DNA from: Hymenobacter norwichensis DSM 15439
GTDB lineage: Bacteria > Bacteroidota > Bacteroidia > Cytophagales > Hymenobacteraceae
Assembly: GCF_000420705.1 (NCBI RefSeq)
Contig: NZ_ATVL01000007.1
Coordinates: 930,001 to 994,000, forward strand
Direction of reading: 5' to 3'
Length of the DNA stretch: 64,000 nucleotides
The notes under the pieces are model-generated. The model was not told the origin of the DNA. It did no database searches and saw only the letters and a program-made list of their open reading frames with translations. Shown piece by piece: positions 7,637 to 49,983 of the stretch; position 1 is the stretch's first letter, and every line of letters begins with the position of its first letter. A program made the position numbers and the translations under genes.

Positions 7637-7727
7637 CGTCATGCTGAGCTTGCCGAAGCATCTCTACCGCTTCGTCGTAACGGTTCAGGCGAAGCGGTAG
7701 AGATGCTTCGGCAAGCTCAGCATGACG
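7637..7727. repeat. Long perfect palindrome, family A copy 1
   Basis: A perfect 38 bp inverted repeat (7637-7674 and 7690-7727) with a 15-base loop, beginning CGTCATGCTGAGCTTGCCG. It starts 16 bp after the cytochrome stop. Copies 2 (8701-8796) and 3 (37455-37579) share the CGTCATGC-GAG start and AGCATCTC part of the arm. A separate U-tailed terminator follows at 7751. Confidence 0.85.
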
Positions 7728-8700: not shown

Positions 8701-8796
8701 CGTCATGCAGAGCGCAGCGCAGCATCTCGCGTGCTGACGTTGCAGACGGTGACCCAATGACGCCCCGCGAGATGCTGCGCTGCGCTCTGCATGACG
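8701..8796. repeat. Long palindrome, family A copy 2
   Basis: A perfect 31 bp inverted repeat (8701-8731 and 8766-8796) starting CGTCATGCAGAGCGCAGCGC, with a 34-base centre. It shares the 19-mer AGCATCTCGCGTGCTGACG (8721-8739) with copy 3 (37482-37500). It fills the spacer between marC and rnhA and runs to within 30 bp of the rnhA start. Confidence 0.85.
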
Positions 8797-26648: not shown

Positions 26649-26658
26649 GAGTCTAGTT

Positions 26659-26831
26659 CTGAATCACAGAATATGCAGATTACACGGATTTTGTAGCCCA
26701 TTATCCGTTCTTAGGCCGCGTTACCACATAAAACAGAAAGAGGCTTGCTACTTGCAAGCCTCTTTCTGTTTTTAATAGTCTACAAAATCCATGTAATCCG
26801 ACTAATCTGCATAATCCGTGATTCCGAATCA
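26659..26831. repeat. Word-repeat palindrome enclosing a terminator
   Basis: The left arm (26659-26696, with GAATCACAG, ATGCAGATTA and CACGGATTTTGTA) pairs imperfectly with the right arm (26780-26831). The right arm has extra ATCCG words. The two arms enclose about 80 bases that contain a conventional terminator. The right arm includes the TGA stop of the convergent amidotransferase gene. Confidence 0.7.
26730..26772. terminator. Bidirectional terminator inside the palindrome
   Basis: A perfect 19 bp stem (AAAACAGAAAGAGGCTTGC at 26730-26748, partner at 26754-26772) with T runs on both strands. It separates the convergent ferredoxin and amidotransferase genes. Confidence 0.85.
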
Positions 26832-37454: not shown

Positions 37455-37579
37455 AAGAACGTCATGCAGAGGCGTAGCCGAAGCATCTCGCGTGCTGACG
37501 CTAGGAGAGTAATCCTGTGTCAGCACACGAGATGCTTCGTCCCTGGCTTGATGCGCCACATGCTCTGTATGACGTTCTT
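37455..37579. repeat. Long palindrome, family A copy 3
   Basis: An outer stem (AAGAACGTCAT at 37455-37465, partner 37569-37579) and an inner stem (CGAAGCATCTCG with GTGCTGAC, 37479-37499, partner 37519-37539, one mismatch) are separated by unpaired, diverged segments. It shares the 19-mer AGCATCTCGCGTGCTGACG with copy 2. It ends 18 bp from the small coiled-coil gene's stop. Confidence 0.75.
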
Positions 37580-40696: not shown

Positions 40697-40704
40697 CAAA
40701 GGTA
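40697..40704 (-). promoter_or_regulatory. -7 promoter box for the E2 gene
   Basis: The minus strand reads TACCTTTG, an exact TAnnTTTG match, 49 bp before the E2 ATG. It separates the E2 gene from the palindrome behind cinA. Confidence 0.5.
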
Positions 40705-40713
40705 GGGAATAGT

Positions 40714-40826
40714 GAAGTGGTGAAATTGTGAGATGGTGAAATTGTGAGTTTGACGTTATAACCGCGCAAATGGCGCAAGTAAAACGTCAAACTCACAATT
40801 TCACCATCTCACAATTTCACCACTTC
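40714..40826. repeat. Word-repeat palindrome, family B copy 4 (44 bp perfect arms)
   Basis: The longest perfect inverted repeat in the window: 40714-40757 pairs with 40783-40826. Each arm is a run of GAAGTGGTGAAATTGTGAGA-type words. The 25-base centre holds the core CCGCGCAAATGGCGCAAGT (40762-40780). The right arm overlaps the last six codons of cinA and provides its TGA stop. Confidence 0.9.
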
Positions 40827-42077
40827 CCCCGCTGGTAGGTTCTGGCGAAGCATATTCAGGGCCATAGTTACGGTGTATTCCACGTTGAGCTGGCGGCCTC
40901 GGTCAAACGAAAACTGGCGGCTGACGGTTTGGTGGGCGTCGGCGTAGGCTATGCAAATAGTACCAACGGGTTTGGCTTCGGTGCCGCCGCCGGGGCCAGC
41001 AATGCCGCTGGTGGCTAAGGCCACATCTACGCCCAGGCGGCGGCGGGCACCTTCGGCCATTTCGCGCACGGTGGCTTCACTCACGGCGCCGTGGTCGGCC
41101 AGCGTGGCGGGGCTTACGCCTAGCTCCTGTACTTTGATATCGTTGTGGTAGGCCACGATGCTGCCCCGGAAGTAGGCGGAGCTGCCCGGTACGCTGGTTA
41201 TCTTATGGGCCAGCAAGCCACCCGTGCAGCTTTCGGCGGTGCCCAGCGTCAAGTTGCGGGCCAGCAGCAGCGGACCGATTGCGGCTTCCAGCTTCACTTC
41301 ACCTTCAGCAAAAATGTACTCGCCAATAGCCGCGTGCAGTTCCGGCAGCAAGGCCTCCATGCGGGGCCTCAGGTCGGGCTGGCCATCGGAATAGCCGGTC
41401 AGGCGCAGCCGGACGCCCCCGAGGTAAGGCAGATAGGCCAGCTTCACATTCGAGGGCAGTGCCGTTTCCCAATCCGCAATTTTCTCAGCCAGAAACGACT
41501 CGCCCAGGCCTACAGTCTGCACCACTACGTGCTCGATGGGGGGCACCTGGAAGCGGGTTTGCAGCCGTGGCAGCACCTGCTCGCTCATCAGGTATTTCAT
41601 TTCGTGGGGCACGCCAGGCATGCTCACAAACACAGTGCCCTGGTCGTCGAACCACATGCCGGGGGCCGTACCCACCGCGTTGAACAGCACCTCACAATTG
41701 GCGGGAACCAGCGCCTGCTGACGGTTTACGTCGAGCATTGGGCGGTTGTAGCGCTTAAATATGCCTTCTACGTGCTCCAGGGTGGGCTCGTGCATCACCA
41801 ACTCACTGTGGAAGTAGCGGGCTAGTACGTGCTTGGTGAGGTCGTCTTTGGTGGGGCCGAGGCCGCCGGTGATGAGTATCACCCGGGCGCGTTGGCGGGC
41901 TTGGTCGAGGGCGGCTACAATTTCGTCGGCTCGGTCGGATACGCTGGAAATCTGCCGCACGCGCAGCCCGATTTTGGCTAATTCCTGGCCCATAAAGGTG
42001 GAATTGGTATCGATGACCTGCCCGTAAAGCAGCTCGTCGCCAATGGTCATGATTTCAACGTCGGGAAGCAGAGACAT
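40809..42077 (-). CDS. cinA: CinA-family nicotinamide-nucleotide amidohydrolase
   Basis: A 422-residue two-domain protein. The N-terminal MoCF/COG1058 domain (~1-170: EIMTIGDELLYGQVIDTNS, TGGLGPTKDDLT) is linked to ADP-ribose or coenzyme hydrolysis, and the C-terminal CinA domain (~255-415: TAESCTGGLLAHKITSVPGSS, TSGIAGPGGGTEAKPVGT) removes the amide from NMN in NAD recycling. Both domains look intact. The last residues (GEVVKL) and the TGA stop are encoded by the arm of a word-repeat palindrome, so the C-terminus here may differ from relatives. Confidence 0.92.
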   Translation of the reverse strand: MSLLPDVEIMTIGDELLYGQVIDTNSTFMGQELAKIGLRVRQISSVSDRADEIVAALDQARQRARVILITGGLGPTKDDLTKHVLARYFHSELVMHEPTLEHVEGIFKRYNRPMLDVNRQQALVPANCEVLFNAVGTAPGMWFDDQGTVFVSMPGVPHEMKYLMSEQVLPRLQTRFQVPPIEHVVVQTVGLGESFLAEKIADWETALPSNVKLAYLPYLGGVRLRLTGYSDGQPDLRPRMEALLPELHAAIGEYIFAEGEVKLEAAIGPLLLARNLTLGTAESCTGGLLAHKITSVPGSSAYFRGSIVAYHNDIKVQELGVSPATLADHGAVSEATVREMAEGARRRLGVDVALATSGIAGPGGGTEAKPVGTICIAYADAHQTVSRQFSFDRGRQLNVEYTVTMALNMLRQNLPAGEVVKL

Positions 42078-48665: not shown

Positions 48666-48669
48666 CGGG

Positions 48670-48677
48670 CAAAAGTA
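48670..48677 (-). promoter_or_regulatory. -7 promoter box abutting the lpxD start codon
   Basis: The minus strand reads TACTTTTG, then CCCG, then the lpxD ATG. With the usual start 4-7 bases after the box, transcription would begin at or next to the ATG, giving a leaderless message. Confidence 0.5.
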
Positions 48678-48689
48678 GAGAAATATTCA

Positions 48690-48753
48690 GTTGTCGGTTA
48701 TCAGTTGTGAGTTGTTGGTTTGTTCTGGCAACTCACAACTGATAACCGACAAC
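48690..48753. repeat. Word-repeat palindrome (GTTGTCGG / AGTTGTGAG words)
   Basis: A perfect 25 bp inverted repeat (48690-48714 and 48729-48753), beginning GTTGTCGGTTATCAGTTGTG. The right arm directly adjoins the TGA stop of the HD-domain gene at 48754-48756. It lies between that gene and the lpxD promoter. Confidence 0.85.
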
Positions 48754-49983
48754 TCATAAAATTTCCTTGGGGTAGCAGATGTAGTGCTTTTCAACGCGCT
48801 GGCCCAGCGCTTTGATGTTGGGCAGGTCGGAGGCTTCGGCCACGTTCACTACCCGGCCGCGCTTGGTTAGCACGTCGATGGTGTCTTGGCCATCGGCGTC
48901 GTAGGCGTTGTTGCTGATGCGGCCGGCAATCATGAGTTGGGCGGCATCGTCGTGGGTGAGGCCGAACCGCTCGGCAATTAGCTCCACAATGCCAATCTGG
49001 AAGTCTTCCTCAAAAGGCTCGGTTTGCAGGCTAATTTTGAACAGGTGTCGGTCCAGAATACTTTGGGAGAGGTAGTTCAGCACCTTGTCGGGGTGGTCGG
49101 CCCAGAGCTTCACGGCGCTCCACACGTCGGTGTCGTCGAGGCGGGCGAAACGGCGCAGGATGGCGTCGTCGGCTTCAAACTCAGCCTGGGTTACGGCTTT
49201 GGCCAGGAAGAAATGCAGGGCCGGGGAGGCCGGTACCTTATGGCCGGCGCGGGTCAGTTCTTGGGCGCGTTGCATGATGCGGATAATCATCTGCTCGGCG
49301 CTGGTTACGGTTTTGTGCAGATACACCTGCCAGTACATCAGCCGCCGGCTCACCAAGAAATTCTCGATGCTGTATACCGCTTTTTCTTCTAGCACCAGCT
49401 TTTCATCTACCACGGTCAGCATTTTGATGAGACGGTCGGCGCCGGGGCGGCCTTCCTGCACGCCAGTATAGAACGAGTCTCGGTTGAGGTAGTCGAGCCG
49501 GTCCATGTCGAGCTGGCTGCTGACGAGCTGGTGGAAAAACGGCCGGTGGTAGGTGCCCTGGAAGATTTCGATGGCCAAATCCAGCGCCCCGTCAAACTCG
49601 GCGTTCAGCTTCCGCATCAGGTGCAAACTGATTTGCTCGTGGTCGACGCCGTGGAAAATACTGCGCTCCAAAGCGTGGGAGAGGGGGCCGTGGCCGATGT
49701 CGTGGAGGAGGATGGCCGCTTGCGCCGCTTCGCCCTCACGGGCGGTAATGGCTACGCCTTTATCCTTAAGTGTGCGCAACGCCAACGACATGAGGTGCAT
49801 AGCGCCCAGCGCGTGGTGAAAGCGCGTGTGCAGCGCCCCCGGATACACAAACATGGTGAGGCCCAATTGCTGAATCCGCCGCAGGCGCTGGAAATACGAG
49901 TGCTCAATCAGGTCGAACAACAGCTCGGTAGGGATGGTCACGAAGCCATACACCGGGTCGTTGAAGATTTTCTTTTTATTCAT
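48754..49983 (-). CDS. HD-domain phosphohydrolase (dNTPase/SAMHD1-like)
   Basis: A 409-residue soluble metal-dependent hydrolase. The HD motif is split as usual: HTRFHHALGAMHL near residue 58, then LHDIGHGPLSHALE near 100 and the closing Asp in SQLDMDRLDYLNRD (~170). This layout is that of dGTPase/SAMHD1-like proteins, which hydrolyse dNTPs, but the substrate here is unknown. ATG 49983 (MNKKKIFNDPVYGFVTIP) is the family start. It precedes the lipid A genes on the minus strand and is divergent from porX. Confidence 0.88.
   Translation of the reverse strand: MNKKKIFNDPVYGFVTIPTELLFDLIEHSYFQRLRRIQQLGLTMFVYPGALHTRFHHALGAMHLMSLALRTLKDKGVAITAREGEAAQAAILLHDIGHGPLSHALERSIFHGVDHEQISLHLMRKLNAEFDGALDLAIEIFQGTYHRPFFHQLVSSQLDMDRLDYLNRDSFYTGVQEGRPGADRLIKMLTVVDEKLVLEEKAVYSIENFLVSRRLMYWQVYLHKTVTSAEQMIIRIMQRAQELTRAGHKVPASPALHFFLAKAVTQAEFEADDAILRRFARLDDTDVWSAVKLWADHPDKVLNYLSQSILDRHLFKISLQTEPFEEDFQIGIVELIAERFGLTHDDAAQLMIAGRISNNAYDADGQDTIDVLTKRGRVVNVAEASDLPNIKALGQRVEKHYICYPKEIL

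Follow-up and report, generated by a model that had tools for sequence, protein, structure and literature searches.

A GTGA-word palindrome encodes the last residues and the stop codon of cinA in Hymenobacter norwichensis, with candidate repeat-derived protein ends elsewhere in the genus

The cinA locus and its palindrome

The analysed window is a stretch of 64,000 nucleotides from the 6.0-Mb genome of Hymenobacter norwichensis DSM 15439 (G000; contig C7, 930001-994000). At the 3' end of its cinA gene lies a member of a repeat family built of GTGA words, here called W, with the following features:

40809..42077, minus strand: cinA, 422 aa (ORF 42077..40809)
40714..40826, no strand assigned: W palindrome at the cinA 3' end, 113 bp, perfect arms of 44 nt each around a loop of 25 nt
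40783..40826, minus strand: right arm of this palindrome; cinA on entry reads GAAGTGGTGAAATTGTGAGATGGTGAAATTGTGAGTTTGACGTT, with GTGA words mostly 8 nt apart
40809..40826, minus strand: cinA tail and stop encoded by the arm (E V V K L TGA)

The final 18 nt of cinA, GAAGTGGTGAAATTGTGA (40826-40809), consist entirely of arm sequence and are read as GAA GTG GTG AAA TTG TGA, that is, E V V K L stop. The preliminary description of this DNA had placed the 44-bp perfect arm (40783-40826) over the end of cinA and had taken the TGA stop from one of its GTGA words; both points hold, while the "six codons" of overlap are five sense codons, or six with the stop counted. The conserved domains of CinA stop at residue 413-414 (Pfam PF02464 extends to 413, NF001813 to 414) and the alignment with the solved homolog 6mr3 likewise reaches residue 414; the arm-encoded residues 418-422 therefore lie beyond the conserved protein. 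For the RNA of the palindrome, a fold of -90 kcal/mol (z = -17) is predicted. The element has 78 similar places in its own genome (matches on both strands), and all 50 of 50 exact matches to a 23-mer of the family in a species-level genome collection belong to Hymenobacter.

On the far side of the palindrome, the TACCTTTG box of the next gene (TTCACTATTCCCTACCTTTG, minus strand; window 40700-40713) begins about 10 nt past the arm, and in several congeners the arm at the end of cinA leads directly into this box.

CinA tails in related species

CinA tails, taken as everything after the last conserved block, were compared across 90 congeners and are variable among them (endings are given here and below up to the stop codon). 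The closest relative, H. telluris BT186 (G009), has the same palindrome and the same EVVKL tail at cinA, a combination that among near relatives is common to these two genomes only. The next eight relatives are without a palindrome at the cinA stop and end in LPAS, LPATE, LPAAE, LPAAEQVATSL, LPTIPAQV, LPTIPKEV, LPKPAGSTV, or LPALAEA; for cinA, the proposed comparison of C-termini thus turned out as anticipated, with other tails and other stop positions in relatives that lack the palindrome. In other clades, cinA also ends in GTGA-word sequence, namely as PPVVK (G025 and G059) or EVVK (G055, G072, and G073), and in G016 and G092 the cinA stop belongs to a word array.

In a CinA tree computed without the tail residues, G000 and G009 form a well-supported branch within a well-supported clade of ten, and the W label requires four changes, all four of which are forced by well-supported branches. 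Judged from these alignments, GTGA-word sequence appears to supply cinA ends independently elsewhere in the genus. For the far clades, a single ancestral gain at cinA followed by many losses is conceivable, although G000 and G009 are nested among lineages without the W palindrome at this gene. The DNA of these two genomes differs by about 14 %, and an empty site at an identity high enough to show an insertion was not found among the compared genomes; the near pair picked, G072 and G073, is only about 89 % identical and therefore gave no clean empty site.

Other genes in the window

Two further palindromes of the window adjoin or touch stop codons and are negative cases with respect to tail donation:

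26657..26828, no strand assigned: palindrome adjoining the stop of the WbuX-like amidotransferase gene, no overlap
48689..48754, no strand assigned: AGTTG-word palindrome, one base in common with the stop of the HD gene

The amidotransferase stop at 26829 had been described as arm-derived; the arm, however, ends at 26828, adjoins the stop codon (26829-26831), and supplies nothing, and the C-terminal end of the protein is identical in G009. The HD stop at 48754 does touch its arm, with a single base of the stop codon in common, and the protein ends in CYPKEIL in G009 and all correctly read congeners regardless of the sequence downstream. For both genes, C-termini and stops are identical in relatives without the palindrome, which speaks against a replaced tail. 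At the stop of the second DUF4197 gene (43889, codon 43889-43891), to which an arm had also been assigned, no palindrome was found in this genome; instead, an ordinary 15-bp hairpin lies about 50 nt downstream, and a palindrome is present in the orthologous gap of G009.

Orthologous gaps, such as the one 3' of the HD gene (window 48666-48753) and others, often carry palindromes whose word family changes from one species to another (AGTTG, TAGTGC, GGTCTTGG, and TTAGGG after the HD gene). Some of them keep the same length despite the change of word (104 nt at C7:820622) while the flanking C-termini are constant. From such alignments, the word content of these gaps seems to turn over at a fixed place. 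A second palindrome family (CGTCATGCTGAGC...GCATCTC) occurs at window positions 7637-7727, 8701-8796, and 37479-37539; its members lie farther from stops, mostly 6-20 nt past them, and the CGTC start resembles the CGTC-tagged REP superfamily named in PMC3733652.

Word arms, reading frames, and position at stop codons

For the statistics in this and the following section, 458 kb of G000, 400 kb of G009, 200 kb each from G072 and G073, and 50 loci from named genomes were analysed. Elements were called by general inverted-repeat detection, as a strict GTGA-word scan gave too few of them (7 and 11 in two segments). With a score of at least 18, 48 inverted repeats were found in 458 kb as compared to none in one Markov-simulated control; inverted repeats this long are not due to chance. 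Gene ends were taken from a purpose-made Markov gene caller, in which a gene entering a palindrome is by construction called as ending at the first stop.

Read inward, 59 of 70 W arms present a stop in each of the three frames within 36 nt, as compared to a mean of 13.6 and a maximum of 22 in 200 shuffles of the arms and to 0/70 on the outward strand. Palindromes outside the W family show a weaker excess (39/230 vs 17.2). Of the 190 spacings listed between GTGA words in W arms, 184 measure 8 nt, and among all arms of at least 24 nt the best lag is 7 (22 arms) or 8 (20 arms); because neither period is a multiple of three, successive copies of a stop-containing word pass through all frames. As a side observation, 6 of the 148 palindromes from the G000, G009, G072, and G073 segments, spread over several word families, share the 8-mer GAACGACC (either strand) in their loops, whereas 0.18 would be expected; many 8-mers having been screened, this is a lead at most.

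For 43 W palindromes in the named genomes, 43 edges lie no more than 60 nt from the 3' end of a gene, and 42 of these fall between -25 and +12 nt of the stop, long gaps included. Twenty of the 43 overlap the coding sequence and 16 contain the entire stop codon, while at 5' ends, with the same 60-nt limit, only one of 24 W edges overlaps the gene (Fisher p = 2.5e-4). Edges at 3' ends with d <= -3 make up 30/105 in two ortholog pairs and 16/43 among W elements. Where neighbouring genes are in tandem, 18 of the 20 elements in the gaps lie closer to the upstream stop than to the downstream start (p = 4e-4), with median distances of 0 nt from the 3' gene end vs 26 nt from the 5' end, which holds in gaps of hundreds of bases. 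Seven W elements lie in divergent gaps with no 3' end near.

Arm-derived tails at pgk, a deacetylase gene, and in ortholog pairs

Two further loci and the two ortholog pairs bear on how far such intrusions extend:

L076:7430-8614: pgk (phosphoglycerate kinase)
G000 C7:724614-724706: palindrome between pgk and its convergent neighbour
G000 C7:1111771-1113135: VimE-like deacetylase gene

Phosphoglycerate kinase ends in AALEGR or TALG in relatives and in AALN, with the stop within the arm, in G000 and G009. The palindrome of this gap contains the stops of both genes at equal depth (8 nt per side), and relatives have ordinary strong hairpins where G000 and G009 have the palindrome.

The deacetylase keeps a native-like ending, IW[EQ]AVM, in G000, G002, and G080. 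It ends in GEMVKW in G009 and the distant G104, in EMVS(W) in G058, G100, and G051, in ELVS in G091, and in LSS, PPSS, or LLS (the CTGTCATCCTGAGC family) in G006, G085, G089, G008, G026, and G087. Further word-derived tails are found in G007, G110, G038, and G056, and the tails of other species also include GLVD and LGNRS. As far as these endings can be matched to words, the deacetylase tail appears to have been rewritten by several families in different species.

Arm-derived tails in the ortholog pairs include IKN, AIKN, VRIN, MVK, EMVKW, and VKL. Where a palindrome intrudes in only one species of a pair (G000/G009 and G072/G073), at least three C-terminal residues differ in 9 of 20 genes and the tail is unchanged by this measure in the other 11; in the same pairs, the tail differs in 7/41 genes with a palindrome outside the coding sequence and in 50/316 genes with no element (16-17 %). 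Intruding elements thus differ from outside ones with p = 0.03 and from no element with p = 0.003, two comparisons that rest on loose thresholds and small numbers, while with elements outside the coding sequence tails change about as often as in genes with none (p = 0.82).

The idea that stop-rich elements can enter the very end of a gene and provide a stop at once is consequently borne out at cinA, pgk, the deacetylase, and in the ortholog pairs, and fails at the amidotransferase, HD, and DUF4197 genes. Its extension, that stop restoration explains why so many elements sit at 3' ends, does not hold, because most 3' elements lie beyond a native, unchanged stop and those outside the coding sequence leave the frequency of altered tails as it is in genes with no element. 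Stop restoration permits intrusion; the 3' bias is not explained by it.

Proposed origin of the arm-encoded ends

Taken together, it is quite likely that a W palindrome overwrote the non-conserved tail of CinA, with translation running into the arm, reading EVVKL, and stopping at the first TGA word in frame. The W family is one of many sets of short palindromic repeats dispersed through Hymenobacter genomes, with arms of imperfect tandem 8-nt GTGA words in inverted arrangement. One such element sits directly at the 3' end of cinA, past the last conserved domain, where an older ending after ...NLPA would have been exchanged for arm sequence (EVVKL). Comparison with the tails of relatives suggests that the palindrome was the later arrival and took the place of an existing tail, not the other way round. 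A period of 8 or 7 nt would place a stop word in each frame within about 24 nt, and intrusions presumably survive since such frame-independent stops cost or add only a few residues; tolerance would thus follow from a period that is not a multiple of three. Against this counts that the CinA tail differs between relatives even where no palindrome is present, so that tail turnover does not need the element.

The leading rival for the 3' anchoring of non-intruding elements is a putative role as hairpins at transcript ends (terminator or mRNA-stabilising), in which selection keeps the elements by stops and codon overlap is incidental from tight packing, a reading that we regard as possible but do not favour. 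It would fit the narrow range of W edges around stops (42/43 within -25 to +12 nt), the proximity to the 3' side in 18/20 tandem gaps, the high stability of the cinA palindrome (-90 kcal/mol), and the ordinary strong hairpins that relatives have in its place at pgk. However, seven W elements lie in divergent gaps, and promoters and start regions alone would likewise drive survivors to 3' ends. A hairpin role moreover rivals the overwriting of the tail only on element location and not on tail donation.

Arm growth by template switching, whereby an inverted copy of one arm is made onto the other side and overwrites the gene end, appears unlikely, even though the pgk gap offers a suggestive example. 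There, relatives share the native end of the neighbour (..VN, GTGAACTAA); in G000 and G009, the inverted copy CTGAACTAA has been gained on the pgk side, turning EGR into N before the stop. These alignments suggest inverted copying between gene ends over a short stretch; the newly matching stretch, though, is only about 4-6 nt, and chance is possible. At the deacetylase gene, similarly, both arms are present in G009, but in G000 a long right arm faces native codons, a state that arm loss would equally explain. The lack of a detected target-site duplication would also agree with copying, but the occurrence of one word family in many gaps calls for movement from site to site, for which local copying does not account.

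Finally, a palindrome that first lay 3' of an intact stop, with the native stop later mutated and the arm stop reached by read-through, would fit the position of most elements 0-12 nt past an intact stop, from where stop loss would lead straight into the arm, yet is improbable given that in cinA the end codon of the relatives' LPATE and LPAAE (GAA) is followed immediately by arm GTGGTG with no stop remnant or spacer, that pgk, with EGR lost, ends earlier than it does in relatives, and that the deacetylase and several ortholog pairs show native residues exchanged, not extended.

Beyond the overwriting of single tails, a broader and rather speculative picture may be drawn, in which a large and fast-changing set of palindromes with periods of 7 and 8 and unrelated-looking words is anchored at Hymenobacter stops, its members replace one another at given gene ends, and the C-terminal tails of conserved proteins are repeatedly exchanged, perhaps by arm-to-arm copying and with no known transposase.

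Comparison with known repeat systems

The palindromic elements of Rickettsia are inserted in frame within genes and are not known to terminate them, unlike W arms, which close three inward frames; 0/43 W elements lie inside a called gene. That such palindromic repeats are translated within proteins is reported as cited in PMC2759123. The closest parallel is given by QMITE1 and QMITE2 of Coxiella burnetii, small inverted-repeat elements whose overlaps with functional genes are described as all 3', 1-50 bp long, and altering C-terminal residues; the last 33 residues of enhC in the Dugway strain derive from a QMITE, and the authors suggested that the C-terminus tolerates change (PMC5896051). W elements likewise overlap gene 3' ends and supply C-terminal residues. 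QMITEs carry repeats at their ends and are flanked by direct repeats, whereas no duplication was found for W elements, and word-built arms, three-frame stops, and several families rewriting one gene are not among the QMITE features in the passages considered (PMC5896051). With respect to classical MITEs, the terminal inverted repeats are present in that the whole W element is an inverted repeat, but there is no fixed terminal sequence (edge hexamers vary), and flanking direct repeats as expected of a target-site duplication are not above permuted flanks for W or other families.

The enterobacterial RU-1, RU-2, and RU-3 elements are short mobile hairpin repeats that are fused to genes, in C-terminal regions where conserved domains are involved (PMC2759123). 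They carry open reading frames and lengthen proteins, whereas W arms leave no frame open, so that a protein running into one ends after a few residues. TAACTGA heptamers of Beggiatoaceae, Cyanobacteria, and Bacteroidetes are tandem words whose period is not divisible by three; according to the author, forward repeats, which read LITDN-stop, can overlap a coding sequence only at its end and by at most 18 nt, and this probably shapes their distribution (PMC4679880). They are, however, direct repeats located mostly upstream of starts, while W words form inverted arms at stop codons and are imperfect and 8 nt apart rather than exact tandem heptamers (TAACTGA- or STRR-like); for some of the other palindrome families, the best lag is 7.

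REP elements and BIMEs with RAYT transposases are described as high-copy intergenic palindromes (PMC2817692, PMC3733652). A REP/RAYT mover was rejected for W, as the Y1 transposase (PF01797) is absent from G000; it is present in 83/120 Hymenobacter genomes and absent from G025 and G104, both of which have W tails. No GTAG or CGTC tag was found at W edges, which carry GTGAAA, GGTGAA, AGGTGA, and similar hexamers; the CGTCATGC palindromes form a separate family. In the papers searched, nothing relevant to palindromic repeats of Hymenobacter was found. Overlap of gene 3' ends by repeats is thus already known, and what is new are word-built palindromes, frame-independent stops, and the repeated rewriting of the same ends in one genus; recurrence at the same genes with several repeat families sets the Hymenobacter case apart from the Coxiella and enterobacterial repeats.

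Significance

These observations describe a concrete way, one that can be counted, in which repeats that are mobile or evolve fast alter protein C-termini. They also offer a simple reason why gene ends would tolerate stop-rich words whose period is not divisible by three, as any frame entering them stops within a few codons. The clustering of elements within about 12 nt of stops, even without entry into the gene, becomes a testable question, and C-terminal differences between close proteins, such as the tails VVKL, EMVKW, IKN, and PPSS, can be repeat-derived.
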